NCBI RefSeq assembly: GCF_900890425.1
Contig: NZ_CAAHFG010000001.1
Span: 2,790,001 to 2,854,000 of the forward strand
From: Pontiella desulfatans
Lineage (GTDB): Bacteria > Verrucomicrobiota > Kiritimatiellia > Kiritimatiellales > Pontiellaceae
Direction of reading: 5' to 3'
DNA length: 64,000 nucleotides
Shown here: piece after piece, positions 1,146 through 63,654 of the stretch
How positions within the stretch are numbered: position 1 is the stretch's first letter
Layout of the letters: every line of letters begins with the position of its first letter
Program-made: the position numbers and the translations under genes
Notes under the pieces: model-generated
Databases searched by the model: none
Told to the model about the DNA's origin: nothing
Seen by the model: only the letters and a program-made list of their open reading frames with translations

Positions 1146-1227
1146 ATTTATAACCCCATGTATCTAATAAAAAAATAACAGCAATGATTTTCGGTATTTT
1201 GCCGTTGGTGCTCTCGCGCCATCATTA

Positions 1228-1256
1228 TAAAAAAGGGGATCCGAGGATCCCCTTTC
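1228..1256 (-). terminator. Rho-independent terminator
   Basis: A perfect palindrome at 1235-1252 (GGGGATCC...GGATCCCC) is followed, on the minus strand, by a run of T (the A-run at 1228-1234). It lies just past the stop of the secreted-protein gene at 1341. A second GC-rich hairpin (GCGCCTC/GAGGCGC, 1298-1317) sits between the stop and this terminator. Confidence 0.85.
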
Positions 1257-1340
1257 AACTTTTCATGCCTATCGCGTATTCGTGTGTTAAGGGAGAAGCG
1301 CCTCTTGAGGGAGGCGCCTCTTCGGCTCAATCAGGCCGAT

Positions 1341-3434: not shown

Positions 3435-3527
3435 TCTGTACTCCTCCTGTTATGGTTTACTATGCGTGCTTCAGTGGGAATCCTTTCCCCACGTTCTGAA
3501 GAGACAGTAACAGCGGACGCCGTCTAT

Positions 3528-3595
3528 GTCATGTCACCTAAACAGATTACACCGCGCACCCATATGTAATTTCGGCTTTTTGACCGAATAACCGG
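3528..3595 (-). promoter_or_regulatory. Conserved upstream element (TTTAGGTGACATGAC motif plus hairpin)
   Basis: On the minus strand the motif TTTAGGTGACATGAC (3542-3528) lies 94 bp upstream of the ATG at 3434. It is preceded by GCGCGGTGTAAT and a small hairpin (TTCGGTC AAAAA GCCGAA). The same order of elements recurs at 6764-6830, and the part downstream of the motif recurs at 25561-25633. Role as promoter or operator is inferred from position and repetition. Confidence 0.6.
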
Positions 3596-3960
3596 CTCTT
3601 CTCGGATGTGCGTTTTTTGAGTAGATACATACAGCGACAGAAAACACCTTATGTCCTGTTCCGCTCCCCTTTATTTCCCGCCGTACGGAACGCGGATCGG
3701 AATATACAGAGGCCAGCCGACGCGGAAGCTCTATAGCAAATGTCTGAGTCTCGACTTTGCTTCAAAATGCTGTAGAACGTGCCTCTCCGCAAAGCGGTGG
3801 GCGCGTGTCCTGCCGAAGAGAACTCGCAGAGGTTTGTCATCCCAAAAACGCACATCCGTGAAGAGCCCGAAAAACCAAGCAGGATAAAGCCTGAAGCAGC
3901 CCGTGGCACATAAAGAGCGGTATCTCTGGCACACCGCAATATGCGAAAAGCGACGTTACA
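3596..3960. other. Intergenic region, no gene recognised
   Basis: About 365 bp between the upstream element and the epimerase stop. The minus strand carries a short open frame (3934-3731) with no start context and no family I recognise; it may be the tail of a decayed gene. No hairpin with a T-run was seen. Confidence 0.4.
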
Positions 3961-5061
3961 TCACTTTGCGCTGAACCTGTAAATAGTCATGGTTTTGTAT
4001 TCTTCGCCTGGATTCAGAATGGTGCTTGGGAAGTTTTTCTGATTGGGGCTGTCGGGATAGTGCTGGGTTTCGAGGCAGAAGCCGCCGCGATTCACATAGG
4101 TTTTACCCGCCTTGCCCTTCAGATTGCCCGCAAGGAAGTTTCCGCAATAGAATTGTATGCCCGGCTCTTGGGTAAAGACTTCCATAAAGCGGCCGGTGGT
4201 TGGTTCGTAGACGGTTGCGGCCAAGGTCATCTTTCCATCCTTATCGCCTTTATCCAGCACCCAGTTATGGTCGTAGCCTAGGCCGTATTCCAATTGCTGA
4301 TCTTTTTTTCCAATATCGCGACCTATGGCCTTGGCCGTAGTGAAGTCGAACGGAGTTCCAGCTACCGGAAGAATCTTACCGGTGGGAATCAAACCGCTAT
4401 CGACGGGCGTGGTCGCCTTGGCATTGATCATCAGTTCGTGATCCAGAATGGTTCCTTCCCCTTCGCCCTTGAGGTTAAAGTAGGTGTGATTGGTCAGGTT
4501 CACCGGCGTCTTTTTATCGGTCGTTGCTACATAGTCGATCTTCAGCTCGTTGTCTTCGGTCAGCGTGTACGTGACCGCGATCTGAAGGTTTCCAGGATAC
4601 CCTTCTTCCCCGTCTTTCGCCAGATAAGAAAGTTTGAGCGCATGGGCTCCGATCACTTCCGCATCCCACACCACCTTATCAAAACCGATGACCCCGCCGT
4701 GCAGGTGATTGGCGTTATTGTTGGTGGCCAGTTCGTACTCTTCGCCATCGATGCTGAATCTACCCAGCGCGATGCGGTTGCCATAGCGGCCGACAATGGA
4801 TCCAAAGTAGGGCTTGTCCACGGCGTTCATATAACCGGAGACATCATTGTAACCCAAGGCGATGTCGGCCATTTGCCCCTCGCGGTCGGTCGTGACGATG
4901 GAAGTCACTGTTGCGCCATAGTTCGTGATTTTGACCGTGGTACCTGCTTTGTTCTTGAGGGTGTAGAGTTTGATGTCATCAAAGTCGGCCGTCTTGACCG
5001 AGGCGCATCCGGCCAGGATTCCGACCAACCCGAGCATTCCAACCCATAGATTTCTCTTCAT
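3961..5061 (-). CDS. galM: Aldose 1-epimerase (mutarotase), lipoprotein
   Basis: Aldose 1-epimerase interconverts alpha and beta anomers of free sugars such as galactose. The 366-residue length is usual for the family. The motifs are present: ITNYGATV near the N-terminus, HLHGG, NLTNHTYFNL and, near the C-terminus, FCLETQHYPDSPN containing the expected Glu base. The N-terminus is a lipoprotein signal with lipobox LAGC (Cys 19), so the enzyme should be membrane-anchored outside the cytoplasm, suited to sugars released by extracellular enzymes. GGAGAG lies just upstream of the ATG. Only 15 bp separate it from the sulfatase upstream (5077-6567), so the two are probably co-transcribed. Confidence 0.9.
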   Translation of the reverse strand: MKRNLWVGMLGLVGILAGCASVKTADFDDIKLYTLKNKAGTTVKITNYGATVTSIVTTDREGQMADIALGYNDVSGYMNAVDKPYFGSIVGRYGNRIALGRFSIDGEEYELATNNNANHLHGGVIGFDKVVWDAEVIGAHALKLSYLAKDGEEGYPGNLQIAVTYTLTEDNELKIDYVATTDKKTPVNLTNHTYFNLKGEGEGTILDHELMINAKATTPVDSGLIPTGKILPVAGTPFDFTTAKAIGRDIGKKDQQLEYGLGYDHNWVLDKGDKDGKMTLAATVYEPTTGRFMEVFTQEPGIQFYCGNFLAGNLKGKAGKTYVNRGGFCLETQHYPDSPNQKNFPSTILNPGEEYKTMTIYRFSAK

Positions 5062-5076
5062 TTCATTCTCTCCTGC

Positions 5077-6567
5077 TTATTTTTTATTCTTCGACTTCTT
5101 TCCATTGTCCGAAGCCTTGGCTTCCGGGTGTGTTGCCAGAATGGCCTTCATGTCAAAAAGTACTTCAGGGCTTGATTGCGCAATATTTTTCTTTTCAAGC
5201 GTATCCATTTTATAATCATACAGTTCATACTCGGCCTCGGTTTCCGGAGCGCCGGGGCGCTTCCATTCCACCATGCGGTAGCGATCGGTGCGGATGGCGC
5301 GGCCGATACGCGGCCCGCGATTGAAGGCATGATAGGCATGATTCCTCACCGAAGCATTCGGATTCTTAAGCACCGGAACCAGACTCATGCCGTCCAGCCC
5401 CTGCGAAACCTTCGGCGTCGGCAAGCCGGCCAGCTCAGCCAGCGTCGGATAGATATCCACCGTTTCCGCATAAGCCATGGTGCTTGATCCCGGCGTCGCA
5501 ACCCCAGGGGCCACGAACATCAGTGGGATGCGGTTGTCCTGCTCATAGTTTGTATGCTTAGTCCACGACCCATGATCTCCAAAGTGCCAACCATGATCGC
5601 CCCACAGCATGACAATGGTATCGTCTGCCATGTCCAGACGATCCAACTCTGCAAGTACTCGTCCAACCTGCGCATCCATATAGCTGAGCGAGGCAAAGTA
5701 GCCATGGATCAGCGTACGCTGCATGTCGTTCGGAATATGTCCCCCATCCTTCGGCACCGGCTTATAGGCGGTCATCTCATGCGCCTTCGGTTTTCCCGCA
5801 TACGAAGGCGCTCCATCCGGAGGCGTATCGCGTTCGGTCAGGGAAAACTGCTCGCTTTGGTAAAGATCCCAATATTTCGTCGGCGCGCAAAACGGAAGAT
5901 GCGGTTTGGTGAAGCCCAGCGCCAAGAAGAACGGCTCTCCGCTTTCCTTGAATTTTTTCAACCGCCTGATGCCTTCCAGCGCAATGCGTCCGTCGGCATA
6001 GGCATCGTCCTTCACATCCGCCTTTTCCCAGGCGGCTCCGCGCTGCAGGTTCCCGATGTTTCCTAGTTGCTCGTTCGCGAAAAGAGCTTCCTCGCGGGTA
6101 AGCTGCCCATCCGTACTTTCTTCGAGGACATAATCAACAACTTTATCGGGATGGAAGGGACTGCTCCACGACGCGGCATCGCCATAATTGCCGTGGCCAA
6201 TGTGAAAAACCTTGCCCACTCCCTCAGCGGTGTATCCGTTCTGCATGAAATATTGCGTCAGCGTGACGGCATCCGGCACCACTTTGCGGAAGCCCTGACC
6301 GAGGCCATACAGGCCGGTTGAGGTCGACCGTAGTCCGACCATCAGGTTATTGCGCGATGGCGCACAAACAGCCTGGTTGCAATAGGCCCGATCAAACCGC
6401 ATACCCCTGGAAGCCAACTGGTCCAAGTTTGGGGAATGTACAAAATCTGATCCATAGGTGCCCAATTCCGGCTTCAGGTCGTCTACCAGAATCATGAGCA
6501 CATTTTTTTTGGCCTGAACTCCCGCCGCCAATACGACGATCGCCATGGCTAAAATCAGTTTTTTCAT
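5077..6567 (-). CDS. Sulfatase, iduronate-2-sulfatase-like
   Basis: A 496-residue formylglycine-type sulfatase (family S1). The start chosen is the ATG at 6567, giving a typical signal peptide (cleavage near VQA, residue 19); an in-frame start at 6618 would bury it. Metal-binding LVDD is near residue 29 and the FGly signature CAPSR begins at Cys 68. HGWHFGDHG in the C-terminal half and the length match the iduronate-2-sulfatase-like group. It should remove sulfate esters from a polysaccharide or oligosaccharide in the periplasm or outside; the substrate cannot be told. It heads a two-gene unit with the epimerase. A conserved motif copy (6764-6778) lies about 195 bp upstream. Confidence 0.9.
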   Translation of the reverse strand: MKKLILAMAIVVLAAGVQAKKNVLMILVDDLKPELGTYGSDFVHSPNLDQLASRGMRFDRAYCNQAVCAPSRNNLMVGLRSTSTGLYGLGQGFRKVVPDAVTLTQYFMQNGYTAEGVGKVFHIGHGNYGDAASWSSPFHPDKVVDYVLEESTDGQLTREEALFANEQLGNIGNLQRGAAWEKADVKDDAYADGRIALEGIRRLKKFKESGEPFFLALGFTKPHLPFCAPTKYWDLYQSEQFSLTERDTPPDGAPSYAGKPKAHEMTAYKPVPKDGGHIPNDMQRTLIHGYFASLSYMDAQVGRVLAELDRLDMADDTIVMLWGDHGWHFGDHGSWTKHTNYEQDNRIPLMFVAPGVATPGSSTMAYAETVDIYPTLAELAGLPTPKVSQGLDGMSLVPVLKNPNASVRNHAYHAFNRGPRIGRAIRTDRYRMVEWKRPGAPETEAEYELYDYKMDTLEKKNIAQSSPEVLFDMKAILATHPEAKASDNGKKSKNKK

Positions 6568-6763
6568 TTTGTCGCCCCTACCCCTCACCGTTTTTTCTCT
6601 CACACCAGTGCCGCTCACCCATGAGCGGCACTCCTAATAAATCCGTCCGATGCTTGTTCTCTAACCTGAATAACCAGCACATCATTCGTCCTTCTTGAGA
6701 ACGAAATGCGTATATCACCCAAGTCCTTAGTAAATGGATAAGATAACGGTCGGATTTCTTTTT

Positions 6764-6829
6764 GTCATGCCACCTAAATGCATTACACCGCGCACCCCTA
6801 AGTAATTTCGGCTTTTTGGCCGAAAGCAC
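6764..6829 (-). promoter_or_regulatory. Conserved upstream element, second copy
   Basis: On the minus strand TTTAGGTGGCATGAC (6778-6764), preceded by GCGCGGTGTAAT and the hairpin TTCGGCC AAAAA GCCGAA (6808-6827). The arrangement is almost identical to 3528-3595. It lies between the response-regulator stop and the sulfatase at 6567, so it probably drives the sulfatase-epimerase unit. Confidence 0.6.
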
Positions 6830-7474
6830 CTACTCAATGCCGGTAAATTTGGCGACGGCCTCGGCGCGGGAGTGAACCTGGAGTTTTTCATAGATACGGC
6901 GAAGGTAGGTGTTTACCGTGTTCACTGAAATATCCAGTTCATCGGCGATTTCTTTACATAAACGACCGCGCGCCAGACGTGACAGAACTTCCATTTCCCG
7001 ACCAGACAGCGTACTGAACTCATCGCTTTGGGAGGTTTCATTTCCCCCACGTGTGAAGGACTGCACCACTTTCCGGGCGATGTCGCTATCCATCGGGGAG
7101 CCCCCGGCGGCAACTTCTTCCAGGGATGGAATGAGCTCAGAGACAATCGATCGTTTGAGCAGATAACCCACCGCGCCGGAGGACAGCGCCTTAAAGATAT
7201 AGTCGGTCTGGTCGTATGCAGTCAGAATCACAAAATCGGTATCCGGCATAAGCGGTTTAAGCTCCTGCACGCATTCGATCCCGTTCTTTCCGGGCAAGTT
7301 GATATCCATCAGCACAATGGAAGGCTTGAGGTTCGGCAGTCCCTTGATGGCAGCATCGAAATCGGGAAATAAACCAACACATTCAAACCGCGATTCATCA
7401 CGGACCAGGTCTGCGATCAGTTCCCGCGTGCTTTTATGGTCGTCCACAATGGCAATCGTTACAGCTTCACTCAT
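6830..7474 (-). CDS. Two-component response regulator, NarL/LuxR family
   Basis: A 214-residue regulator with an N-terminal receiver domain (acidic pair at residues 11-12, phospho-acceptor Asp 57 in VLMDINLPG, Lys in YLLKRS) and a C-terminal LuxR-type HTH ([15 protein letters not shown], then [21 protein letters not shown]). It should bind DNA when phosphorylated by the kinase encoded directly upstream. The ATG at 7474 overlaps the kinase stop by one base, so the pair is translationally coupled. Its likely targets are the neighbouring sulfatase genes (inference). A remnant of a second copy of this gene's 3' end lies at 30424-30507. Confidence 0.92.
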
Positions 7475-12403: not shown

Positions 12404-13771
12404 TTATTTATTTTTCTTGGAGGTTTTCTGATTTACCTTTTTTTCCATGCGTTCAAGCGCTTTCATTTCAGTCTCCTGTCCTTCATCGCCACAATGCGCC
12501 ATCCACCGCTCCAGTTCCGCGCGCAGTTCGGCCATAACCGTTTTGTGTTCGGGATTGCCGGCCAAATTGTTCATTTCGAGCGGATCGTTGCCGATGTCAT
12601 ACAGTTCGACCTCCGGACGGAACGTATAGGCCTGAACCAACTTCTTCGCCCGCTCATCACCTGCGTCGGCTCTGGCTTCCCAACTCCGGAATTCCTTCGA
12701 TACGGTGCATACGTTTTTGAATTCGGCCTCTGGCGTAAAGTTCCAGATATATTTAAAGCGCTCCGACCGCACCGAGCGGATGCCAAAGTATTTGGAGCCC
12801 CTATTGATGCCGCGGGTGGTCATTTCGCCATAGACATACTTCTTATGCTCCTGCTTCCCCTCGAAGACCGGCAGCAGGCTTTCGCCATCCAGCACCGGAG
12901 CGGGCTCACCGCCCGCAACTTCGATAAAGGTCGGCAGGATATCAACATATTCGATCATGGCCGGATTCACAGAGCCGGGCTTAATCTTACCCGGCCAGCG
13001 GGCGATAAAAGCCGACTGCAACCCGTTGTCGTAGCAGGTCCATTTGGCAAACGGCATCGAACTGCCCTGCTCACTGACCACAATCAGCAGAGTGTTATTT
13101 GCGAGTCCATTCTTTTCCAATAGTTGGACCGCTTCACCCACTTGCGAATCGTAGTAGGTGACTTCGGCCAGATAGCGCGACATTCCTTCACGCGTTTCCG
13201 GCGTATCCACGAAATACGGCGGCAGCTTGATCTTCTCAGGCGGATAGCGAGAGGCATCGCCCTTATTCCAAGGAGTATGCGGCTCATTCGAACAAAGGAG
13301 CAGACAGAACGGTTCTGACTTAGATTTGCAGTCGGCCATGAATGCATCGACTTTATCGAACTCCGGATTTTTGCCACCCGGTATTTTTTCCCAGGCAAAA
13401 ACGGAGTTGGGTGCCACATGGGTCTTGCCGCTCTGCGCTACCCGGTAACCTAAGTCTCTCAGATATTGGACGATGCTCGGGGTTCCGGCATCCACATACG
13501 TGTGATTCGGATAGGCGCCGCTTTTAACGGGATACTGCCCCGTATAAATAGTATGGCGCGTCGGCGAACACATCGGCGCCGTCTGGAAGCAGTGGGTAAA
13601 CCGCATACCCTCTTGTGCCACCGCATCAATATGGGGGGTGTAAGCCTGTCCCCCATAGCAACCGATGTCACGGTGCGTGCAGTCGTCGGCAATCATAAAG
13701 ACCAGATTCGGCTTTTGAGCGGCTTGTGCGAGTACGGCACAAAAACCGATAATGAGTATTAAAACCTTCAT
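12404..13771 (-). CDS. Sulfatase, N-sulfoglucosamine sulfohydrolase-like
   Basis: A 455-residue S1 sulfatase with signal peptide, metal site IADDCTHRD and FGly signature CSPTR at Cys 68. The overall layout (short protein, SGKTHV block, SEQGSSMPFAKW) resembles the heparan N-sulfatase-like group. It sits in the middle of the three-sulfatase operon, starting 3 bp after the upstream sulfatase ends. A Lys-rich C-terminus is present. Three different sulfatases in one transcript suggest sequential desulfation of one glycan (inference). Confidence 0.9.
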   Translation of the reverse strand: MKVLILIIGFCAVLAQAAQKPNLVFMIADDCTHRDIGCYGGQAYTPHIDAVAQEGMRFTHCFQTAPMCSPTRHTIYTGQYPVKSGAYPNHTYVDAGTPSIVQYLRDLGYRVAQSGKTHVAPNSVFAWEKIPGGKNPEFDKVDAFMADCKSKSEPFCLLLCSNEPHTPWNKGDASRYPPEKIKLPPYFVDTPETREGMSRYLAEVTYYDSQVGEAVQLLEKNGLANNTLLIVVSEQGSSMPFAKWTCYDNGLQSAFIARWPGKIKPGSVNPAMIEYVDILPTFIEVAGGEPAPVLDGESLLPVFEGKQEHKKYVYGEMTTRGINRGSKYFGIRSVRSERFKYIWNFTPEAEFKNVCTVSKEFRSWEARADAGDERAKKLVQAYTFRPEVELYDIGNDPLEMNNLAGNPEHKTVMAELRAELERWMAHCGDEGQETEMKALERMEKKVNQKTSKKNK

Positions 13772-13774
13772 CGC

Positions 13775-15157
13775 TTATTTCCTATTTTGAGTTTTTTGCT
13801 GAACCTCATGCGGAGTCGGGCCGCTCAGGGGATAAGGATCGCGCTGCATTTGTACGGTATCGCCCTGTTTCTTCATCCATTCATCCACCCTACCCGCCAT
13901 TTTTTCGATCTGTTTTTTATACTCCGGATTGCCCGCCAGATTCACCTGTTCATTAGGATCTTTTTCAAGATCAAAGAATTCAATAGCCGGACGCTGGTAA
14001 TATTTGGCGATGATGGCCTTGGCCTTAGGATCTTTCTTTGCGGCTGCGTCCCACGAGTCCCAGTAGCCCCCCGCCCTGTCCTTACGGAGAATATCAGAAT
14101 GGTTGGAGTGGTAACAATCCGCATTGATGTTGCGGATGTATTTGAACCGCTCCGTGCGCACGCTGCGGATCGGATAGACGTTCATGGCCCCATCGGCGGT
14201 CGTCGTGGTGTAGATCAGATCACGATGGTGGTCCGACTTGCCCAGCAGCACATCGGCGAACGATTTGCCATCGATGCCGTCGGGCGCCGTTCCGCCGACC
14301 AGATCGAGGAGCGTCGGGAAAATATCGATCCAGCTAACCATGGCCTCCGTTCGTGCTCCTGCAGACACATGCCCTGGCCAACGGATAATCAGTGGAACCT
14401 GGGTGCCGTGGTCGTAGAGGTTCCATTTCCCGAACGGCCATTGCCCTCCGTGGTCTGCGGTGTAGATAAACAGGCAGTCATTATTGCCAAAATGATTGCG
14501 CACCACCGCATCGACCTTTTCCATTTCAGCGTCCATTCCGGTGATATCGGTCAAATAGCGCGCCCAATGCTCGCGAGTTTCCGGCGTATCTATAAACCAG
14601 GAAGGTAAAGTAAGTTTAGCTGGATCATAGTCCATCTGCCTGGTCCACGGCACATGCGGTCGTCGATCACCCACCATCAGACAAAGCGGCTTGTCGGATT
14701 TCCGTTGGTGGAGGAATTTATCAACGTTTTCAGCCAGCCCGATCTTTTTTGAAATGTTAGCGTCGAAGCCCACCATCGATGCATAGTCGTTGTGGGCCAC
14801 CTTTCCGAAGGCCGCTACTTCATACCCTGCAGCTTTCAGCTGCTTGACCATAATCTGTGTTTCCGGCCGTGGCTTTTGGTGGTTTTCCTCGGCTCCGTTG
14901 CGGGCTGGCATCAGGCCACTCAGCAGGGCCGATCGGCTCGGCCCGCAGGCGGGCGATGCCACAAACGCGTTGTCGAACACCAAACCGTCCTTCGCCAAAG
15001 ACGCCATCATCGGCGTCCGAACATCGGAACTTCCATAAACGGAAGATTCCGCCCGCCCATGATCATCCGCCAGATAAATAACAATGTTGGGCTTATCCGC
15101 TCCGAATGCCGACGAGACATACACTAGTGCAAAAAGAATTTTGGTATACATACGCAT
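13775..15157 (-). CDS. Sulfatase, N-sulfoglucosamine sulfohydrolase-like
   Basis: A 460-residue S1 sulfatase; signal peptide ends near AFG (19), metal site LADDHGR, FGly signature CGPSR at Cys 71. The ATG at 15157 is chosen because AAGG sits at proper spacing; the upstream ATG at 15166 overlaps it. It is the first gene of the operon 15157-10761. A variant of the conserved motif (GTCACATAAAC on the plus strand, 15238-15248) lies about 80 bp upstream. The first 90 codons and the upstream region are duplicated at 23556-23928. Confidence 0.9.
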   Translation of the reverse strand: MRMYTKILFALVYVSSAFGADKPNIVIYLADDHGRAESSVYGSSDVRTPMMASLAKDGLVFDNAFVASPACGPSRSALLSGLMPARNGAEENHQKPRPETQIMVKQLKAAGYEVAAFGKVAHNDYASMVGFDANISKKIGLAENVDKFLHQRKSDKPLCLMVGDRRPHVPWTRQMDYDPAKLTLPSWFIDTPETREHWARYLTDITGMDAEMEKVDAVVRNHFGNNDCLFIYTADHGGQWPFGKWNLYDHGTQVPLIIRWPGHVSAGARTEAMVSWIDIFPTLLDLVGGTAPDGIDGKSFADVLLGKSDHHRDLIYTTTTADGAMNVYPIRSVRTERFKYIRNINADCYHSNHSDILRKDRAGGYWDSWDAAAKKDPKAKAIIAKYYQRPAIEFFDLEKDPNEQVNLAGNPEYKKQIEKMAGRVDEWMKKQGDTVQMQRDPYPLSGPTPHEVQQKTQNRK

Positions 15158-49302: not shown

Positions 49303-50967
49303 CTATAGAGTGCCAATCACTCGTTTTACTTGTTCCATCGAATCTACAAATGACCGGATGATCACATCATACCGGTCAGCGAACCGTTCCGGCGGCTCGG
49401 AGGCAAGGTGCGGCGGTAGCGCCTCCGGGTGCGCCTTCAGAAAATCTTCCATGAATGCAACCCTCGCCCGGTAGTCTTCTCGATCGAAAGCCGTGGCGAG
49501 GATAAACTGGATATACTCCTCCTGCCTTCGCTTCTTATACTCATCAGCCATACGGTCCAACACGTGTCTCAGCCCACCGCGCGTGGCATCCCTAGCCTCA
49601 GCATAGGCGGCAACTCCTCCACCTTCGCGTGCAAAGGCTTCCCCCATCAATGCATGGGCCTCAGGCATGACCTCTTCCGCAGTCACATGCTCTCCGGTTC
49701 GGCCCGTAGCCTGGGTCATATGGAGATAAAAGGCCGCCGCCACACCCAGTGTCTCGGCCTGGGACTCCGATGTGACACTGTAAAGTGCGTAACCGGCGCG
49801 TGCCCTGTCGATAGGAAGGCCGATTCTTTCCGCCAGGTTTTCCGGCTGCAATTCGGCCGTGACTATCGCAAGCGTGCTGGACACCGGGCCATCGTCCGCA
49901 GACGGATGAAGATGTGCGTAGTGTGTCGACCGGCGGCGTGTTGCCGCATCATATAGCGCGACGACATCGTCGCCATCGTCAGCGGTGGCGTATTGACTGA
50001 GGCGTATGCACGTACTGACCGGAACCAGGGGATACTCAAGTCCCCTCTGGGTCTCCAGGGGAATTACACTCAGAAGTTTCCGGAGGCGGGTGCCGAATCC
50101 ATGCGGATAAAGGCTGCGCCGCAGATATGAATCCGACCACTCGGATAGGAGAGGTTTCAGCTCCCTGGAATCGCCCGAGGCGACCGTGTTTTTAAGAACC
50201 ACATGGAACCGCTCAGGAATCTGGCCTCCCAGTTTTTGGATTGTGCGCATAACCGGATCATCCCCTGCGGAATCGATGTCATCCGGCAGTCCGAATCCAG
50301 TTCTTAAGGCTGATCGTACAATGTCCTCTTCCAGGAAAACCGCAGAGATAATCCCTTCAATCGTACGTACCGCCGTAATACGTATGTGCCGCCGTGCTTT
50401 TTGGATAGCTGCAACCAGGATTTTGCGCTCTTCAGCCGGGAGGAAACGGTTGGAGCTGTCCGCATCAACATCAGGATAGAGAAACCCTTCGATATCGGCA
50501 TCGTCGATCGCGGCCTGAATCTTTGCAGGGATATGCCGCACCAGACGGATATCGCCGGAAACCGATGCCATGTGCCCCGTCAGAACGACATCCTGAACCA
50601 AGGGAATATTAAGGGCGGCCGACAGCATGGCCGCGAAAACGGGCGCGTCAGCGGAAAAGCCGGAGACATCTATTCCAACATCGGCGTTGGATGCCGCGGA
50701 CAGGTTAACGCCGGACAGTTCAAATCCGAACGGGCCTATGCCAAGACCGGCGCATATTGAATCCACAACTGGCAGCACATTCTCCTCGATATGCCGGAGA
50801 GTAGCCAGATCAAACCGCAGCGTGCCGGCAATGGTGAGTCGATCCGGTTTATCACACTCCTGCGCCTTTGCGATCACGGCGGTGACCACAGCCTTGGGCG
50901 CACTACCGTTCTCGAATACCAGCACGGTCTTCGCACGGCCGATTACAGATGGAGGGTTACGTTTCAT
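49303..50967 (-). CDS. Lon-like (S16) protease-domain protein with shared element domain
   Basis: A 554-residue two-part protein. Residues about 85-215 follow the Lon proteolytic domain: SGFSADAPVFAAMLSAAL, VVLTGHMASVSGDIRLV, then IPAKIQAAI and GFLYPD. Ser 105 and Lys 149 are 44 apart, close to the 43 between the Lon dyad residues, though the GPSAG context is degraded to GFSADA. There is no AAA domain. The C-terminal third (375-554) is the domain repeated in the next two genes. It could be an ATP-independent peptidase or a dead scaffold. Its ATG overlaps the upstream stop (ATGA). Confidence 0.65.
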   Translation of the reverse strand: MKRNPPSVIGRAKTVLVFENGSAPKAVVTAVIAKAQECDKPDRLTIAGTLRFDLATLRHIEENVLPVVDSICAGLGIGPFGFELSGVNLSAASNADVGIDVSGFSADAPVFAAMLSAALNIPLVQDVVLTGHMASVSGDIRLVRHIPAKIQAAIDDADIEGFLYPDVDADSSNRFLPAEERKILVAAIQKARRHIRITAVRTIEGIISAVFLEEDIVRSALRTGFGLPDDIDSAGDDPVMRTIQKLGGQIPERFHVVLKNTVASGDSRELKPLLSEWSDSYLRRSLYPHGFGTRLRKLLSVIPLETQRGLEYPLVPVSTCIRLSQYATADDGDDVVALYDAATRRRSTHYAHLHPSADDGPVSSTLAIVTAELQPENLAERIGLPIDRARAGYALYSVTSESQAETLGVAAAFYLHMTQATGRTGEHVTAEEVMPEAHALMGEAFAREGGGVAAYAEARDATRGGLRHVLDRMADEYKKRRQEEYIQFILATAFDREDYRARVAFMEDFLKAHPEALPPHLASEPPERFADRYDVIIRSFVDSMEQVKRVIGTL

Positions 50968-56520: not shown

Positions 56521-57033
56521 TTATTGCCCTCCCGAATGTACGCTCTGTTTGTAGTCTTCCTGCGTGCGCTCGCTTTCGTCCCGAGCCGTTTGTGCGCGTT
56601 CGATCTGCTCCATCAGGAAATCGATGTCACGCAGCGCGGCTTCCTTGGCTTTCACCAATTCGCTGACAGTTTCATCCGTTTCCAACCTGCCACTGGCCTC
56701 GGAGACACGCTCGAGGTCGGATTGATCCGAGGCGGAATGATCCTCCAGCTCACTCTGGAACTCCTGGCTGCCCGACTGCATGTCATCCAGCTCGCCATCC
56801 TGCTGATCGAATACATCGACCGTTATGTTCTCGGCATCCGTTATCGATTGCTCGACCGCGTCCGCCCCCTCGGATGTCCCGCCGAATTCCAGACTGGCCA
56901 ACGTGTCACGGACCGTAGCGACATCCTGCTGAACCTTGTCCAGATCGCCCAGTTTCTCATCCATGTCCGAATTGGAGTGATCGACCGTCTCGGAGATTTC
57001 ACCACGGCCTTTGGTGTCTTTATTTCGTTTCAT
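56521..57033 (-). CDS. Acidic helical protein
   Basis: A 170-residue, strongly acidic protein (rich in Asp, Glu, Ser, Gln) with two predicted coiled-coil segments (MDEKLGDLDKVQQDVATVRD and KAKEAALRDIDFLMEQIERA). It overlaps the end of the ATPase gene by 14 bp. Possibly a partner or cargo of that ATPase; no family recognised. Confidence 0.7.
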   Translation of the reverse strand: MKRNKDTKGRGEISETVDHSNSDMDEKLGDLDKVQQDVATVRDTLASLEFGGTSEGADAVEQSITDAENITVDVFDQQDGELDDMQSGSQEFQSELEDHSASDQSDLERVSEASGRLETDETVSELVKAKEAALRDIDFLMEQIERAQTARDESERTQEDYKQSVHSGGQ

Positions 57034-59812
57034 TTTCGTGCCTTCCTTTCCGCGCTGAAGTCAGCGCTTTGATACGTTCCAACATTGAAACCAGATGCGT
57101 CAGGGCGGCCTTAACGTCCGGCTGCATAACCTCCCGCCACCGTCGCTCCAAGTGATCAATCCACGAGCGCAATTCCGAGCTGAGCGAATCCCGCTCGCAG
57201 TCATCCGGAAGCCATCTGGTGAGTTCAACGTTTTGAAAATACCGAAGCCTCGACTCGAGCCGCCGCCGTAACCCCTCGACTTGCCGGATCAACGCATCTT
57301 TTTCCTTGCGCATACGGGACGCACGTATTTGATGCTGAAACATAGGTAACCGGGCCATGGTGACTGCCACTTCCCGAAGAATGGCTACACGCATATCGTC
57401 AAAATCATCCATGGCACACTGCAGATGAGCTGCCTGATCTTCCATGCGCCGCTCGATCGCAATCAGGAACCAATCATCGTGCTTAATCAGGTCTCGAAGG
57501 GCGGAATCCGTGGGCGGCAATAGATCCAGGTGTTCGTGCAGGTTCACCGTACGGATGCGCTGAGGATAGTGGTAGCCGGGCGCAAACAGATATGCATGCC
57601 CCGGGCGCAGGCGAGCAATCTCCTCGTACTCCGAATCGCCGAAGAGCATCGCGGCGCCGATAGTGGCGCGGTCTTCACTATGGGTAAGCTGAAACGTCAC
57701 CTTCGTTCCGGGATGCTTGACGACTTCCGCCGCTACGGCTGAAGGCATCTGGTCGGCAATAATGATTCCAATACCCAGCGCCCGAAATTCCGCCAGCAAT
57801 CGCGACACGCACTCCGCCGCGTATGCCTTTGGATCCGGAAAATCTTCGGATGGTGCTGCGTCCGTGTTGGTTCCTACGATGTTGTGGGCTTCGTCAATAA
57901 TCAGTACATAGCGCAGGTCTCCATCCGCCGGTGGCATTGAACGTAGTTCCTGTCGGAGCCGCATAAGAATGAAAAGAGTGAGGAAACAGGCATGATCCTG
58001 AGACAGGCGCTCCAGTTCCAGAATGCCCGGAGATCTTAGCAGTTCTGTCATTGAAGGATTATCGCGCCTGCCTTGCAGCACACGCCCCATCGCGCCGCGT
58101 GTCAGACTGTTTAAACGCGTATCCATGGCTCCACGGAGGTCCGAATAGGTTGATGGAGCATAGCCCTTTGCCTGCAAGGCCGCCTCCGCTTCAGCAAGGA
58201 GATCTGTGATGCATGGAACGTCTTCCTCTTTACGGTTCCAGTATACGCGTTCCAAAGCCTCTCTCAGAATACCCGGAAGAGGCCCCGACATTGGCATGAT
58301 TGCCTGGAAACAGGACTCGAGCATGCTGATGTGTTCTTCAATGGAAATCCCTTCAGGAACCTGCAATGGGTTAATCTGAAACGGGGACAACGTGTTATTG
58401 CCTGGTGTGTATATGCGCAGATCCCGCGCCAGATCGGATGCACCCGGATACTCGATTTCTCCGAGCTGCTTGAGTGCCCGTGACTCCGTCTTGACCGGTT
58501 CGATGTGCAAAAAGGGAATCCGCTTCCGCCAGAGGGAAATCAGGAGCGACATCAACAGCACGGTCTTTCCATTGCCGCACATTCCCGACATGAAAAGATG
58601 CCGTGTCAACGTCTTCGGTGAAATACCTCGAACTACATCCCCATTTCTGGTCTCTCCGAGGTCGTCTACTCCGATCGGAATGGTATTGCCTTCCGGCTCA
58701 CACGGAGGATCGGTGTCCCGATTCGCACAGCAAAACGGCCCGGATGTAGCCATGGGCAGTCGAAATATCCCGCCGAGTTCGCTGACGGATGCCGTATTCA
58801 GAAGTTGGGCGAGTTTTTGATATTGCGGGGGTAGTCCCTGAAATCCGTCCGGCAACTCTTCCTCCTTGATAACTGAATTCGACTCAAGCCCGTTTTTTAC
58901 ATTCGTGACGGCGCAGCCGGCGGATCCCAACACCAGCTTGTAGGCGCCCTCTTCGAATGCACTTTCGGCGACCGTTGATGCCAGCAGATGGGCAGTGGCC
59001 GCATCATGTGCAAGTACAACTATGTGGAAGTTAAGCTGTGCGTTTCGAAGACCATCGTGAATCTTCTGATGCATCCGATATGTCTCGGCTGCGCTGGGGT
59101 CGGGATAGCGATGCGGAGCGAGAACCGGCGAATCCATCCGTGCGCGGGGATCATCGGACAATGGATCCATCCGAAAGGCAGGCTCCTCATGCGCATCCCA
59201 ATGGCGGTTGATTCGGGTGACATGTTCAAGATACTGCGTACTGCTGATTCGAAGTTGCTGGATGTCTGCTGGACAAACAGCAATATCCACCACAGCCGCT
59301 TCAGCAAAACCGTCCAGAACACGATCAAGGCCCGAGAAGTCGTTGTCGTCATTCGGTTCAAATGGATTGCAGACGAAATACTGGCCTGGGATGTCGGCAT
59401 TCAGATCGCATGGAATGAGCGGTTCGATAAAAGAATATGAACGTACGATCCGGCAGGCGGCTGAAAGAGAGTCATCCAGAGGTGGAAGCTGATCCTCGAC
59501 CAGAGTGAAGAATTTCGAAACGGAGCCTCGACGTAGAATCGAGGCCACCGCTTCCAATTCAGCACCATCCCCGCCTGAAATATATGGGTATACCTTCAGC
59601 CGATCCCGTACGCCGCCAGCCGTTTGCTCCGGGACATAGACATAGCGCAGCCCTGCCGTTATCGATCCCGGCTTTAGATCAGACACAAACCTTAGAATCT
59701 GTTTCAGGGCATCCCAGGCCGCCCGAACCGGATTTGCGGCCATGGCCCGGAGTCTGGCAGGCCTCGGATCCGGAATGTTTACAAGCAAAAATGCTTTGGC
59801 TTTAGCCAGCAT
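57020..59812 (-). CDS. HerA/VirB4-like ATPase
   Basis: A 930-residue ATPase. Residues 1-400 are a specific N-terminal region. The motor has Walker A GMCGNGKT (410-417), FLHIEPVKTESRALK, LRIYTPGNNTLSPFQINPLQ, and Walker B VLIIDEAH (637-643). These are hallmarks of the HerA/DUF87/VirB4-like pumping ATPases. A 140-residue helical tail ends in a heptad-rich stretch. Start at 59812 has GGAGAGG and overlaps the E1 gene by 11 bp. Being directly after E1 in the transcript, it may be a target or motor of the modification system (inference). Confidence 0.85.
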   Translation of the reverse strand: MLAKAKAFLLVNIPDPRPARLRAMAANPVRAAWDALKQILRFVSDLKPGSITAGLRYVYVPEQTAGGVRDRLKVYPYISGGDGAELEAVASILRRGSVSKFFTLVEDQLPPLDDSLSAACRIVRSYSFIEPLIPCDLNADIPGQYFVCNPFEPNDDNDFSGLDRVLDGFAEAAVVDIAVCPADIQQLRISSTQYLEHVTRINRHWDAHEEPAFRMDPLSDDPRARMDSPVLAPHRYPDPSAAETYRMHQKIHDGLRNAQLNFHIVVLAHDAATAHLLASTVAESAFEEGAYKLVLGSAGCAVTNVKNGLESNSVIKEEELPDGFQGLPPQYQKLAQLLNTASVSELGGIFRLPMATSGPFCCANRDTDPPCEPEGNTIPIGVDDLGETRNGDVVRGISPKTLTRHLFMSGMCGNGKTVLLMSLLISLWRKRIPFLHIEPVKTESRALKQLGEIEYPGASDLARDLRIYTPGNNTLSPFQINPLQVPEGISIEEHISMLESCFQAIMPMSGPLPGILREALERVYWNRKEEDVPCITDLLAEAEAALQAKGYAPSTYSDLRGAMDTRLNSLTRGAMGRVLQGRRDNPSMTELLRSPGILELERLSQDHACFLTLFILMRLRQELRSMPPADGDLRYVLIIDEAHNIVGTNTDAAPSEDFPDPKAYAAECVSRLLAEFRALGIGIIIADQMPSAVAAEVVKHPGTKVTFQLTHSEDRATIGAAMLFGDSEYEEIARLRPGHAYLFAPGYHYPQRIRTVNLHEHLDLLPPTDSALRDLIKHDDWFLIAIERRMEDQAAHLQCAMDDFDDMRVAILREVAVTMARLPMFQHQIRASRMRKEKDALIRQVEGLRRRLESRLRYFQNVELTRWLPDDCERDSLSSELRSWIDHLERRWREVMQPDVKAALTHLVSMLERIKALTSARKGRHENETK

Positions 59813-61124
59813 GATCCTCTCCATTTATTTCGCAATGGGAGAGAAGCTCGCGCACGCCGTCATCGGACAAATCGATATTGGCCTGCTCGGCAAGGTGCTG
59901 GACGAAGTCCCCGCAAACAGGACACGACGGTGCGGCCTCGAAGTTGATCCCGTACCACCGCATTACCCGCATGCCGTCGATTCCGTATCCCAACGGGTCC
60001 CATGATTCGTACTGCGATCCCTGCTCGCGGCGATTCAGCCACAGGTACCAGTTGGCCTCGAGATCCTCGTCCAGCGAGCGAAGGGTGGTGTCCTGGTCCT
60101 TCAACAACTCCTGGAGGGCGAGTTTGGCCGTCATCTGGGCGATAGGCTCGATATCGACCGACAGCCCCGGTTCAATAGGAACCGGTCGGTCCGAATACGC
60201 TATGGTTTCGGCTTCCGGATCGGTGTATGCGGATGCGTCCTTGGCAAGCATCTGCACGAAGCACTGGTAGCAGGCAGACCCCTCGGGTTTCACCCGAAGA
60301 ACCTGGCCCCCGTATGCCCGACGGAACGCTCCACTGATGATCAGAGGTGTTCCCTCCTCTCGGCACACCCGGTTCAGGAGAAGCTTCCCCTCCCGTTGGT
60401 CGCCCGTATCAATGCAGATGTCGGTCTGCCGCACCAGCTCGCGAACAAGATCGATATTTTTATCGCTTGCCTTTTCTTCATATGTCGTGATTTCAGCGTA
60501 CGGATTCTTGTTCCTTACAATGTCCGCCATCGCCTTCGTTTTGTAACGGCCAATGTCGGAGAGTCCGGCTTCGTGGCGGATAACGTTTGCCACCTCGAGA
60601 CGGTCCTGATCCATGAAGATAAACTTCTGAACCCCTGACTGTGCCAATAAACGAATTACCGTGGACCCCACCGATCCGACACCCTTGAAGAATACGGTTT
60701 TATCCGCCAAAACACTCGTCTCTATAAGTCCACGGGCGCGGGAATAGAGTTCTTTCCTAACCGGAACCACTTGAATCCGGCACGGTTGCTCCTTCCCTCG
60801 TTCATCAATAACGGTTCCACTAACCCGATATTTTACACCGTCAATATGTATAACCGCATCCAATTGATTTGATGAATGGTCCGGAGAGGTATCCAGTTGC
60901 ACACATAATTGGATTGGAGCCGTTCTTAAGCGGCTCTGCAAAGAGTCATCCCTGTCAACGAGCTGGATGACTCCTTCAATGGTACCCTCCGCGTGGGCAC
61001 GCGGCCCCAGCGAGGTGAAAACGATGCCATCCCGCACGGTGAACCATACAGGAATGGCATCCCGTTTCCGAACAGCGCGTTCCGCATCGGAACCGTCGAC
61101 AGTAGCGCAAAATTGTGATTTCAT
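59802..61124 (-). CDS. ThiF/E1-like ubiquitin-activating enzyme
   Basis: A 440-residue protein. Residues 1-140 are a beta-rich N-terminal domain. The adenylation domain follows: nucleotide loop GVGSVGS (148-154), FMDQD (170-174), NVIRHEAG, GRYKTKAM with Lys 195/197, and DTGDQREGK. Zinc-type Cys pairs are at 285/288 (CYQC) and 401/404 (CPVC). E1-like enzymes adenylate the C-terminus of a small modifier and pass it to a Cys. The start at 61124 overlaps the stop of the small-protein gene (ATGA). A truncated second copy of its 5' end lies at 61364-61492. Cys 254 (NRVCREE) is one candidate thioester residue. Confidence 0.9.
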   Translation of the reverse strand: MKSQFCATVDGSDAERAVRKRDAIPVWFTVRDGIVFTSLGPRAHAEGTIEGVIQLVDRDDSLQSRLRTAPIQLCVQLDTSPDHSSNQLDAVIHIDGVKYRVSGTVIDERGKEQPCRIQVVPVRKELYSRARGLIETSVLADKTVFFKGVGSVGSTVIRLLAQSGVQKFIFMDQDRLEVANVIRHEAGLSDIGRYKTKAMADIVRNKNPYAEITTYEEKASDKNIDLVRELVRQTDICIDTGDQREGKLLLNRVCREEGTPLIISGAFRRAYGGQVLRVKPEGSACYQCFVQMLAKDASAYTDPEAETIAYSDRPVPIEPGLSVDIEPIAQMTAKLALQELLKDQDTTLRSLDEDLEANWYLWLNRREQGSQYESWDPLGYGIDGMRVMRWYGINFEAAPSCPVCGDFVQHLAEQANIDLSDDGVRELLSHCEINGEDHAG

Positions 61125-61333
61125 TTTCCAGCCTCCTGCCACGAGACGGCACGTGAGTGGCTGACCTTCATGTCTTCAGGTACCACCCTCAGCATGTCTT
61201 TTTTGGCGGCATCGTCAGCCGATGCGACCTCCAAGCGTTTGGTTTCAGGGTTAAAAACCATCATCTGGCTGGCAGTTTCCTTGCCCTGGGCCATGTCACG
61301 CATCATCTGCTGGATTTTCTCTTTGTTGGTCAT
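61121..61333 (-). CDS. Small ~70-residue protein, copy C; candidate modifier or partner of E1
   Basis: A 70-residue protein of unknown family with AGGAGAAT upstream. N-terminal helix (MTNKEKIQQMMRDMAQG), a strand pair (MMVFNPETKRLEVAS), then KKDMLRVVPEDMKVSHS and a C-terminus ending EAGK. It has about 65% identity to copy B (61489-61697) and a weaker match to copy A. It overlaps the E1 start codon. Size and place suit a ubiquitin-like modifier, but I see neither a clear beta-grasp pattern nor a GG end, so the role is open. Confidence 0.7.
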   Translation of the reverse strand: MTNKEKIQQMMRDMAQGKETASQMMVFNPETKRLEVASADDAAKKDMLRVVPEDMKVSHSRAVSWQEAGK

Positions 61334-61363
61334 TTTATTCTCCTATGGTTGTTGTGGTAATTC

Positions 61364-61492
61364 TCAGGCTCCCATCTGAAGCGCCCCCTTTTTAGGCACC
61401 CGCATGGTGAACCATACAAGAAAGCTATCACGCTTCCGGATAGTGCGTTCCACATTGGCACCGTCAGCAGCCATGCAGTACTGTGTCTTCAT
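61364..61492 (-). pseudogene. E1 5' relic left by tandem duplication
   Basis: A 42-codon frame whose first 31 residues (MKTQYCMAADGANVERTIRK, ...VWFTMR) match the E1 start (MKSQFCATVDGSDAERAVRK). At residue 32 it jumps to VPKKGALQM, which matches the end of copy A (VPKDELLQM), and then stops. It starts with an ATGA overlap, exactly as the real E1 does. Confidence 0.85.
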
Positions 61493-61920
61493 TGTTCAGC
61501 CTCCTGCCAAGATGCGGCACATGAGTGGCTGAGCTTCATGTCTTCAGGTGTCACCCTCAATACGTCTTTTTTGGCGGCATCATCGGTCGATGTGACCTTC
61601 AGGCGTTCGGTTTTAAGGCCATAAATCACATGGTTGGAAGCCTGCTTGCCCTTGGCCATGTCGCGCATCATCTGCTGGATTCTCTCTTTGTTCGTCATTG
61701 TGTTCTCCTGTCGTTGTTGATGTGGCAATTCTCCGCGATCCATCTGAAGCAGCTCGTCTTTAGGCACCACCCTTAACATGTTCTTCTTGGTGGTACCGTC
61801 GACCGATGCGATTTCCAGGCGCCTGCTTTCAGGATTGAAGACCAGCCTCTGGCTGGCAGCCTGTATGCCTACCGCAGGACCGGCGCACATCATCTGCTGG
61901 ATTTTCTCTTTGTCAGTCAT
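61489..61920 (-). CDS. Fused copies A and B of the small ~70-residue protein
   Basis: A 143-residue protein made of two related units. Unit A (1-57, MTDKEKIQQMMC...) loses the usual C-terminal SHS...SWQEA part; the frame then reads through the spacer and the ribosome-binding sequence of unit B (RGELPHQQRQENT) into unit B's MTNKERIQQMM. Unit B can probably also be translated alone from its ATG at about 61698. The last residues are SWQEAEQ, and the stop overlaps the E1 relic. A natural two-unit fusion recalls poly-modifier genes, but may simply be an accident of duplication. Confidence 0.75.
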   Translation of the reverse strand: MTDKEKIQQMMCAGPAVGIQAASQRLVFNPESRRLEIASVDGTTKKNMLRVVPKDELLQMDRGELPHQQRQENTMTNKERIQQMMRDMAKGKQASNHVIYGLKTERLKVTSTDDAAKKDVLRVTPEDMKLSHSCAASWQEAEQ

Positions 61921-61962: not shown

Positions 61963-62412
61963 TCACATGAAGTAACCTGAAATCGAACTCCCGTCCTGCA
62001 TGTGTGCAGAGTGGGCGATGCACCACAAATTCCCTTTAAGAATTGGAAGAACATAAGTAACGCTCGCATCCCAGTCACTCGAGGCTGTGTGGCAGATCTG
62101 AACCCTCCCTTCGGGTCCATTACTTAATGTATGGTACGCGTGAGTTGCACCGACCTCGTTTATAGAGCCGCTGGGCATACGAGGCACAATCAGCGGGGCC
62201 CACACGTACAGTGCGGGGCACACCTCGGGAAGGAGGGGGTTGAAGTAAAGCCGCAATTGGTAATCGATGCTGTCCTGCTCACCGGCCACCCACCCCTCGA
62301 AGTAGGCCTCGTCTTCCTTCACCCTAACCATTTGAAAGTGGGGGAAGTGCAATTGCATCAAATACACTTGCATGGCTATTACCATATTAATGCTGTTGAT
62401 GATCGTACTCAT
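61963..62412 (-). CDS. E2-like ubiquitin-conjugating protein
   Basis: A 149-residue protein with the E2 layout: an N-terminal helix, strands (YFEGWVAGEQDSIDYQLRLY), a P-rich turn (FNPLLPEVCPALYV), His 91/His 94 (THAYHTL), then GRVQICHTASSDWDASVTYV with candidate catalytic Cys 107, and a helix containing Trp 130. E2 proteins accept the modifier from E1 on this Cys and transfer it to target lysines. Similar bacterial E2s occur in Bil and other ubiquitin-like operons. AAGGAAA lies upstream. It starts 5 bp after the basic-tail gene. Confidence 0.8.
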   Translation of the reverse strand: MSTIINSINMVIAMQVYLMQLHFPHFQMVRVKEDEAYFEGWVAGEQDSIDYQLRLYFNPLLPEVCPALYVWAPLIVPRMPSGSINEVGATHAYHTLSNGPEGRVQICHTASSDWDASVTYVLPILKGNLWCIAHSAHMQDGSSISGYFM

Positions 62413-62417
62413 GTTAC

Positions 62418-63095
62418 TTACCGTTTTCCTTTCTTGTGCTTGCGCCCCTTGGAGCGCTGTTTCGTTTTTCCTTTACCCCTGCGTGGGCGTGTGCGCCGGA
62501 CTTTCTTTTTGGCTGGGGTGCTTTTACCGGATCGTTTGCGGTCTCCACTGGAGCCTTTGCTGGATACAGCGGTCACCGCCTTACTCTTGCCAGTGTCATC
62601 AGCAGGAGATGAATTGCGTGCCGGAGAGGTTGACTCACCTCCCACGAACGAACACAACCGCGAATAGATTTGATCTAGCCTTAGATCCAATCCGCGGGGA
62701 TTGATCGTCCGGGAGACATCCATGGGTTCATCCTCAAGATCGGTTTGGCAGAGAACAACAGTTTTGCCATCGCCTAAGCTTTGGAAGAAGCCAATCCACG
62801 CAATCCCGCCTCCAGGTAAAGGTATTTCGATGGTAGCGTCACCATCCACTTCGCCAGGGAGAACCTTGACAGCGGAAGCCACCGGGTCAGGAAGCGAAGC
62901 AATTCCCTTGGCGAGCGATTTCAGTTGAGGGCAAGGATCTATGGAAGCCTCATTAAGGGTCGATGCGTCAGTATGCCCGGCATATTGGCACCCGTAGCCC
63001 TTATGAGGGGATAGCACCATGCTCCCTAACAATCGTTCGCGTATAGGGCTCATTTCCGAAAGCGGAACAAGTTCTACTGGTATAGGTTTCATCAT
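62418..63095 (-). CDS. Protein with Lys/Arg-rich C-terminal tail
   Basis: A 225-residue protein. The N-terminal 150 residues hold a compact domain with IEIPLPGGGIAWIGFFQSLG and KTVVLCQTDLEDE, unassigned. The last ~65 residues are low-complexity and very basic (TPAKKKVRRTRPRRGKGKTK, ending KGKR), resembling histone-like or nucleic-acid-binding tails. The start MMKP at 63095 is set by AGGAGGTTC. Lying between JAB and E2, it could be a modification target or an RNA/DNA-binding adaptor (inference). Confidence 0.75.
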   Translation of the reverse strand: MMKPIPVELVPLSEMSPIRERLLGSMVLSPHKGYGCQYAGHTDASTLNEASIDPCPQLKSLAKGIASLPDPVASAVKVLPGEVDGDATIEIPLPGGGIAWIGFFQSLGDGKTVVLCQTDLEDEPMDVSRTINPRGLDLRLDQIYSRLCSFVGGESTSPARNSSPADDTGKSKAVTAVSSKGSSGDRKRSGKSTPAKKKVRRTRPRRGKGKTKQRSKGRKHKKGKR

Positions 63096-63102
63096 GAACC
63101 TC

Positions 63103-63654
63103 CTATCTGTATATGTATGCGTTAATGGTGACATTGCCCTTTGAAGGGCTCATTGTGGTGATCAGCTCGACAAAGGTAGGGATGCAGTTTTTGGCCATAA
63201 TTGAGCTGGCAGACGCAATATCCCCCATACTTGGGCGACGAAGCCCCATGACGTGGTGCGAGTGCCATCGCCCGATAAAACAAAGTCCAAACCGCTTATA
63301 GATCTTTTCGCTGCAACGCCGAAAATAGTTGATATCCTGAATGAACGTTGCAGTGGAATGCACGGCTTGTGGACCAGGTGGCGTAGCCAGCATAACAATC
63401 GGCGTTCCGCTCCCAGTGTATGCCCCGTAAAGGTGTCCCCCGGTCTCGGTATCGCCCCACTCTAATGTATTGCAACGGATGGATTCGATTTCCGAGCGGT
63501 GAATTAGGATTCGCTCTTCCTGTTTAACCTCATCGCAGGCATAGTCACATTGCAGCGTCTTAATACCAACGAGAGCGGAGTCGTGCGTAGATTTTTTGCC
63601 CGGAAGCCCCTCGTTCGATGGCTTCCATAATCCCAGACTATTTTGTGTCTTCAT
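63103..63654 (-). CDS. JAMM/JAB (Mov34/MPN/PAD-1) isopeptidase-like protein
   Basis: A 183-residue protein. After a 45-residue leader the JAB domain begins ILIHRSEIE. The JAMM residues are Glu 70 (DTETGGHLYG), His 131 and His 133 (GRWHSHHVMGL), Ser 142 and Asp 145 (RRPSMGD). The His-to-Ser spacing is one residue longer than in Rpn11. JAB proteins cut isopeptide bonds or trim modifier C-termini using zinc. It is the first gene of the visible operon. The ATG at 63654 (AAGGGCAAGAG upstream) is favoured over an upstream extension to 63795 that lacks domain similarity. Confidence 0.88.
   Translation of the reverse strand: MKTQNSLGLWKPSNEGLPGKKSTHDSALVGIKTLQCDYACDEVKQEERILIHRSEIESIRCNTLEWGDTETGGHLYGAYTGSGTPIVMLATPPGPQAVHSTATFIQDINYFRRCSEKIYKRFGLCFIGRWHSHHVMGLRRPSMGDIASASSIMAKNCIPTFVELITTMSPSKGNVTINAYIYR

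Follow-up and report, generated by a model that had tools for sequence, protein, structure and literature searches.

A family of small proteins, hereafter the module, is found directly upstream of an E1-like enzyme in all 31 loci compared (31/31), as a separate gene in 26 of them and fused in frame to the E1 N terminus in the other 5 (L053, L056, L058, L059, and L068). Both the reality of this family and its association with E1 are firm. We put at about even the chance that these small proteins are a dedicated, JAB-trimmed modifier of the E1/E2/JAB operon that is not of the ubiquitin type. The proposal is built on the universal linkage to E1, the E1 fusions, a motif near the C terminus followed by variable tails, conserved catalytic motifs in both E1 and E2, and the prediction of a fold other than that of ubiquitin. 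At the locus in the window (the whole 64,000-nucleotide stretch of Pontiella desulfatans DNA that was analyzed), the modifier reading draws on homology, because both free-ended copies there lack the motif; the window copies are atypical members of the family.

The window operon

On the minus strand, the gene order is JAB, a basic-tailed protein, E2, a 143-aa protein, a 70-aa protein, E1, a HerA-type ATPase, and further genes. Profile searches back the identities of E2, JAB, and E1. The JAB/MPN metallopeptidase (63103 to 63654, minus strand; ETGG...HSHH...PS..D) was matched by PADLOC JAB (3.9e-16) and by Prok-JAB (E 0.001, under the curated cutoff). An open reading frame (ORF) for a protein with a strongly basic tail (62418 to 63095, minus strand) separates it from the E2-like enzyme (61963 to 62412, minus strand; PADLOC E2, 3.5e-6), whose conserved His and Cys (HTL...QICH) are seen in an alignment of 25 E2s. 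The E1-like adenylating enzyme (59802 to 61124, minus strand; 440 aa) has a ThiF domain and a CxxC...CxxC arrangement (Pfam ThiF, 8.6e-33; PADLOC E1-E2; alignments) and is followed by the HerA/FtsK-type ATPase (57020 to 59824, minus strand; PADLOC mad8, 4.6e-17; HerA, 2.6e-10).

As the initial annotation had described, repeated proteins of about 70 residues are encoded between E2 and E1, where a modifier would be expected. Their ORFs are on the minus strand, and the stop of the last, copy C1, overlaps the ATG of E1 by 4 bases. The description of separate copies holds for C1 alone (61121 to 61333, minus strand; 70 aa, directly upstream of E1, ending EAGK). Because there is no stop between C3 (about 61709 to 61920) and C2 (about 61489 to 61698), these two copies are halves of one in-frame 143-aa protein (61489 to 61920, minus strand; ending EAEQ), as the ORF and the repeats indicate; the window thus holds three modules in two proteins. 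The DNA repeats of 230 nt (79%), 104 nt (72 to 78%), and 95 nt (61 to 84%), spaced by 365 to 368 and 216 to 222 nt, exceed chance. The repeat unit of ∼368 bases takes in the first ∼31 codons of E1, and an ORF at 61364 to 61492 (minus strand) copies the start of E1 and then stops, a truncated duplicate that, from the ORF and the DNA repeat, is a remnant of tandem duplication. The dN/dS ratio of C1 versus C3 is 0.21 (constrained, with differences mostly at silent sites). The ratios for C1-C2 and C2-C3 are 0.62 and 0.55, respectively; thus, C2 looks more relaxed. No module was found elsewhere in the genome (G000), all three copies being at the operon locus.

An integrase (Pfam), a TrwB-type ATPase, a kinase, a HerA-type ATPase, and a 1569-aa protein without a Pfam match are located nearby, in the window from 41998 to 64000 and at L034, which suggests that the operon is carried on a mobile element. 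No tRNA was found between 38000 and 64000 of the window. A protein at 49303 to 50967 contains a Lon-protease-like stretch (NCBIfam lon_rel, 2.7e-7), and an apparent counterpart, judged by eye, also lies 3' of E1 in L035 (14049 to 15629).

Linkage to E1 and distribution

Searching 387 genomes of its own phylum with the window E1 retrieved two close relatives (47% and 38% identity) and a third, more distant one (L037), at a locus with JAB and E1. At 1971 to 6985, L037 has a related E1, a JAB, and an AAA ATPase, with no small module seen. An alignment of three E1s was scanned over the contigs of species genomes, which gave the 31 loci, two of them repeats of L035 and L036. Because the scan used E1 only, the neighbors of E1 in these loci are independent evidence. 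The loci come from Bacteroidales, Kiritimatiellae, Actinobacteria, and Puniceicoccaceae, Caldiserica, Desulfovibrionaceae, and Clostridium MAGs. In L054, the module makes up the second half of a longer open frame; it was counted as separate from E1. In L041 and L043, where JAB and E2 lie downstream of E1, the module keeps its place immediately before E1. Fused and separate forms have undergone at least four changes on the E1 tree, which has 33 rows and two long branches, including the window; L035 was dropped from it by the motif filter. Alignment A4 omits L064 (E1 interrupted), L046 (start unclear), and L056 (repeat of L036).

Clustering of the ORFs lying up to 9 kb from E1 at 34 loci gave E1 (34), E2 (34), and JAB (33/34; the contig of L050 begins inside E2). 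After these and antisense shadows came a ClpB-like ATPase (17/34) and one further family (8 loci). Since no other gene occurs in more than 17 of the 34 loci, the module is the sole further component present throughout. A modifier elsewhere in the operon, including a shared beta-grasp modifier gene alongside, was rejected as a candidate, as besides the module no family within 9 kb of E1 was common to more than 17 of the loci. A common effector gene was likewise rejected: comparison of neighbor proteins (45 of 217) with known defense families gave only scattered matches (viperin-like, GmrSD, and SspE). The ClpB-like ATPase lies 3' of the operon in L042, L046, L049 to L055, L058 to L060, and L065 to L069.

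A profile of the module (A3) gave 33 matches in 30 whole genomes from among those with E1 loci, all within E1 loci; two weak matches were hairpin-tagged neighbor genes. The same profile had matches in 2 of the 393 Bacteroidales genomes, counting the center genome, in 4 of the 387 genomes from the window's phylum, and in 6 of the 297 from the Actinomadura order. One of the four, a weak match in G254 (E 9.8e-4) that falls within a 732-aa frame, is likely due to chance and was discounted. Occurrences of the system are rare and scattered. Plasmids of Bradyrhizobium barranii also carry it, with the module fused to E1. No viral relatives were found by E1, and a match on a phage-labeled fecal scaffold (L095) was set aside as a different E1 beside an FtsK/EssC-type ATPase, with no module seen. 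On this scaffold, the E1-like gene adjoins, by eye, an ATPase of 1423 aa (584 to 6308).

Predicted fold, C terminus, and enzymes

From the N terminus, the aligned modules show a short helix region, a hairpin ([LM]V[FY][ND]P.TG.F), a stretch of variable sequence, and a motif at the C terminus. Modeled with 34 homologues as input, C1 was predicted by AlphaFold to have a non-ubiquitin fold (H3-15, E23-28, E33-38, H39-44, H52-60, and a disordered tail; pLDDT 72.2, pTM 0.50). With moderate confidence, the model gives a helix, a hairpin, and two short helices, not a beta-grasp. Foldseek comparison of the C1 model with the PDB gave no match at E ≤ 0.001, and neither Pfam nor NCBIfam contains the family, each returning one weak chance match. 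A beta-grasp fold was rejected in view of the model and these searches, in agreement with the earlier impression that the window proteins have neither a GG end (EAGK and EAEQ) nor a beta-grasp pattern. Solved-structure matches to A3 were mostly designed proteins covering 11 to 24 profile positions, none of which is a match alone, and were discounted. For the natural fusion L059, AlphaFold predicts the ThiF domain confidently, the hairpin with a pLDDT of about 61, and a disordered tail with values below 50. An alignment of fusions and short rows (A5) had scattered C termini and was kept out of modeling.

The same hairpin occurs in the first 45 residues of 30 of 585 ORFs (13 being small modules or fusions) versus 7 of 2,680 internal windows; the hairpin-tagged other genes number 17 in 15 loci. 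Such hairpin-start genes are found beside E1 at L042 7035, L045 7462, L053 9949, L058 9951, L059 9960, L060 6313, L061 5019, and L062 9984, among others. Their starts are exemplified by MPYVYNERTGEFED and MTDYIFDPETGEFRE, and several look like small membrane proteins.

Of the 41 aligned modules, 37 have an aromatic residue at one column and 33 have A, G, S, or T at the column after it, beyond which the sequence varies. This aromatic-then-small motif (mostly GFA) falls within the last 8 residues of 32 of the 35 free-standing proteins; the background for the same motif and span is 2/25 in E2, 2/30 in E1, and 674/3,605 in mechanical ORFs. The exceptions are the two free ends of the window (PEDMKVSHSRAVSWQEAGK and PEDMKLSHSCAASWQEAEQ) and L035 (PEDLRVSLTT). 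Tails after the motif are variable, with 0 to 5 residues in most relatives; the near relatives L049 and L050 match closely up to GFAL and continue with QEVA and RLAA, respectively. Inside the fusions, the motif runs into E1 (QGFAAEL, GGFASES, KGFAAGE, and EGFANAG). A conserved end with a seemingly disposable tail is, by analogy, the pattern of ubiquitin-type precursors. The initial annotation had listed a new modifier, a JAB-trimmed precursor, and an adaptor as options; all are still live, and the comparison (31/31 loci, motif in 32/35) favors a conserved partner of the E1 family.

The last residue of the 35 free-standing modules is A in 19, G in 3, S in 2, K in 2, and E, L, V, T, P, I, R, D, or Q in one each. 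A C-terminal Gly or GG, the hallmark of ubiquitin-like modifiers, is therefore not characteristic of the module (G last in 3/35). The last residue is A, G, or S in 24/35 modules versus 18/55 E1 and E2 proteins (Fisher p 0.0012, for related sequences that are not independent). Because the terminal alanine is also encoded by GCC, GCG, or GCA before stops without an ATGA overlap, it is not forced by that overlap. Six actinobacterial members keep EDM[KR]AF, with A, A, R, G, D, and G as last residues. Two neighboring genes upstream of the fused module in L053 (5895 to 6218 and 6305 to 6970) end in FSA and SFA; the background of this pattern is 15/455 ORFs, and these ends may be due to chance.

The His and Cys of E2 are conserved in 25/25 aligned E2s. 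In 30 aligned E1s, the glycine loop and the Asp, Arg, and Lys adenylation positions are invariant, and we take these positions to be the MoeB catalytic residues. Among the cysteines of these E1s (L059 numbering), only C323 and C326 are invariant, while C446 and C449 are present in at least 90%; beyond these zinc-type CxxC pairs, no conserved thioester-type Cys was found in the 30 sequences.

Candidate roles and known systems

As a modifier, the module would be a tag of ∼60 residues with a short helix, a beta-hairpin, a flexible C-terminal tail, and no ubiquitin fold. It would be made as a precursor with a variable C-terminal extension (mostly 0 to 5 residues, longer in the window, and a whole E1 where fused), which JAB would trim to expose the small C-terminal residue after the aromatic one. 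E1 would adenylate the exposed end, and the E2 cysteine would accept the tag and pass it to a target, from which JAB may also remove it. Because E1 has no conserved cysteine besides the two CxxC pairs, the hand-over of the adenylate from E1 to E2 would be direct. The loci display the genetics of such a system, from which we infer trimming, adenylation, transfer, and a target. Somewhat short of even confidence is our broader proposal that short non-ubiquitin-like modifiers with their own E1, E2, and JAB carry an [FY]-[AGST] tail in place of GG, are made as trimmed precursors, are E1-fused in several lineages, and are often ClpB-coupled, which would make them a Pup-like tag handled by ubiquitin-type enzymes.

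The strongest rival, which we judge unlikely, makes the module part of E1, as a non-covalent subunit or an activating domain. Its hairpin and aromatic motif would bind E1 in cis or in trans and recruit E2 or the real substrate, the real modifier being another protein that is possibly locus specific. Such a subunit would explain why the module invariably lies immediately before E1 and, in 5/31 loci and in Bradyrhizobium, is fused to it, and why the motif is kept inside fusions, where no free end exists; the four or more fused/separate changes suit it equally. Also weighing against a modifier are the absence of the motif from the window free ends and L035, the mixed actinobacterial ends, and the L059 fusion model, in which the hairpin and tail are of too low confidence to show docking into E1. 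Against an E1 subunit stand the lack of any other gene common to more than 17/34 loci and a motif that lies at or a few residues from the C terminus in 32/35 free-standing proteins; moreover, tandem copies as in the window and the two copies in L065 are, from general knowledge, more usual for a modifier. The Bradyrhizobium locus L094 offers another candidate substrate: its module is inside E1, and the next gene (13054 to 13928) matches CBASS cyclases (PADLOC 1.5e-72), ends in STFGA, and is followed by a Cap4-type nuclease. This cyclase, with its TFGA end, could be the true E1 substrate, which would favor the subunit over the modifier; it may be broken, since its N-terminal part reads in a different frame. 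A cyclase model run over 12 genomes gave no match, but its positive controls also matched nowhere. Should the Bradyrhizobium E1 target the cyclase tail in the manner of Cap2, then either the fused module serves a different role or the tail is supplied in other loci by their free modules.

Two further readings concern the small protein itself. It is improbable, in our estimate, that the module is the chief target or an adaptor, with E1 and E2 conjugating another protein and the hairpin serving as a recognition tag common to neighbor N termini. The 17 other genes with the hairpin in their first 45 residues (15 loci) fit such a tag, yet the hairpin scan found no tagged other genes in actinobacterial loci, and the small protein is universal. 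We give still less credence to the view that the window genes are degenerate leftovers of a functional family, in which an E1-start piece was duplicated and the C-terminal motif lost. The motif-less window copies, the relaxed C2 (dN/dS 0.62 and 0.55), and the E1-start remnant at 61364 to 61492 would accord with decay, but C1-C3 has a dN/dS of 0.21, all frames are open, and the catalytic motifs of E1 and E2 are kept.

The initial annotation presumed a dedicated modifier protein for every E1/E2/JAB operon. This premise proved too strong, because type II CBASS conjugates the cyclase's own C terminus: Cap2 conjugates cGAS, which is not a beta-grasp protein, through a C-terminal Gly/Ala (PMC10097602). 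Type II CBASS (Cap2/Cap3) resembles the present loci in its E1, E2, and JAB, its non-beta-grasp substrate, and a conserved small C-terminal residue (Gly/Ala there, mostly Ala here), and one Bradyrhizobium member adjoins a cyclase and a Cap4-type nuclease. In contrast to type II CBASS, E1 and E2 are separate genes here, the candidate modifier is a ∼60-residue protein and not a cyclase, and no effector is common to all loci (ClpB-like ATPase, 17/34). BilABCD and other prokaryotic E1/E2/JAB operons share with the module loci the combination of E1, E2, JAB, and a small protein, as well as a sporadic distribution. BilA is trimmed by its JAB, BilC (PMC11354881), a step only proposed for the module. 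Iyer et al. 2006 list five E1/E2/JAB operon types (6a to 6e), of which two include beta-grasp proteins, and also describe E1s whose N termini are fused to ubiquitin-like domains (PMC1779556). The conjugation of cGAS, the trimming of BilA, and these N-terminal fusions are precedents for the modifier proposal. Bub operons are described in PMC13373217. The small proteins of BilABCD and types 6a to 6e, as far as they have been described, are beta-grasp proteins, unlike the module, which is not and generally lacks a C-terminal Gly. The accessible portions of the Cap2, BilA, and Iyer et al. 2006 sources (PMC10097602, PMC11354881, and PMC1779556) do not describe the module, and no paper on it was found in the open literature by title and start of abstract, with partial coverage of print.

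Ubiquitin-type enzymes are usually thought to act on beta-grasp proteins; CBASS is an exception, as there an enzyme is conjugated through its own tail. If the modifier proposal is true, a small dedicated modifier with a non-ubiquitin fold would demonstrate how loose the tie between E1/E2 chemistry and ubiquitin is, and so compact a system (56 to 70 residues, about four genes) would make the rules of E1 recognition testable by a few C-terminal changes. The natural E1 fusions are ready constructs for structural work. Pup, a tag read by a ring ATPase, is like the module in having about 60 residues and being largely flexible; unlike the module, it is attached by PafA rather than by E1/E2 and has GGQ or GGE at its end. 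MccB, which is among the structural neighbors of the E1 model, is an E1-like enzyme that acts on a short peptide (it adenylates MccA); it has no E2 or JAB and makes an antibiotic. Finally, the JABs of some relatives (L047, 7203 to 8138; L049, 6928 to 8070) carry at the C terminus a domain of FP..P-type pattern that, by eye, resembles an inactive E2/RWD domain.
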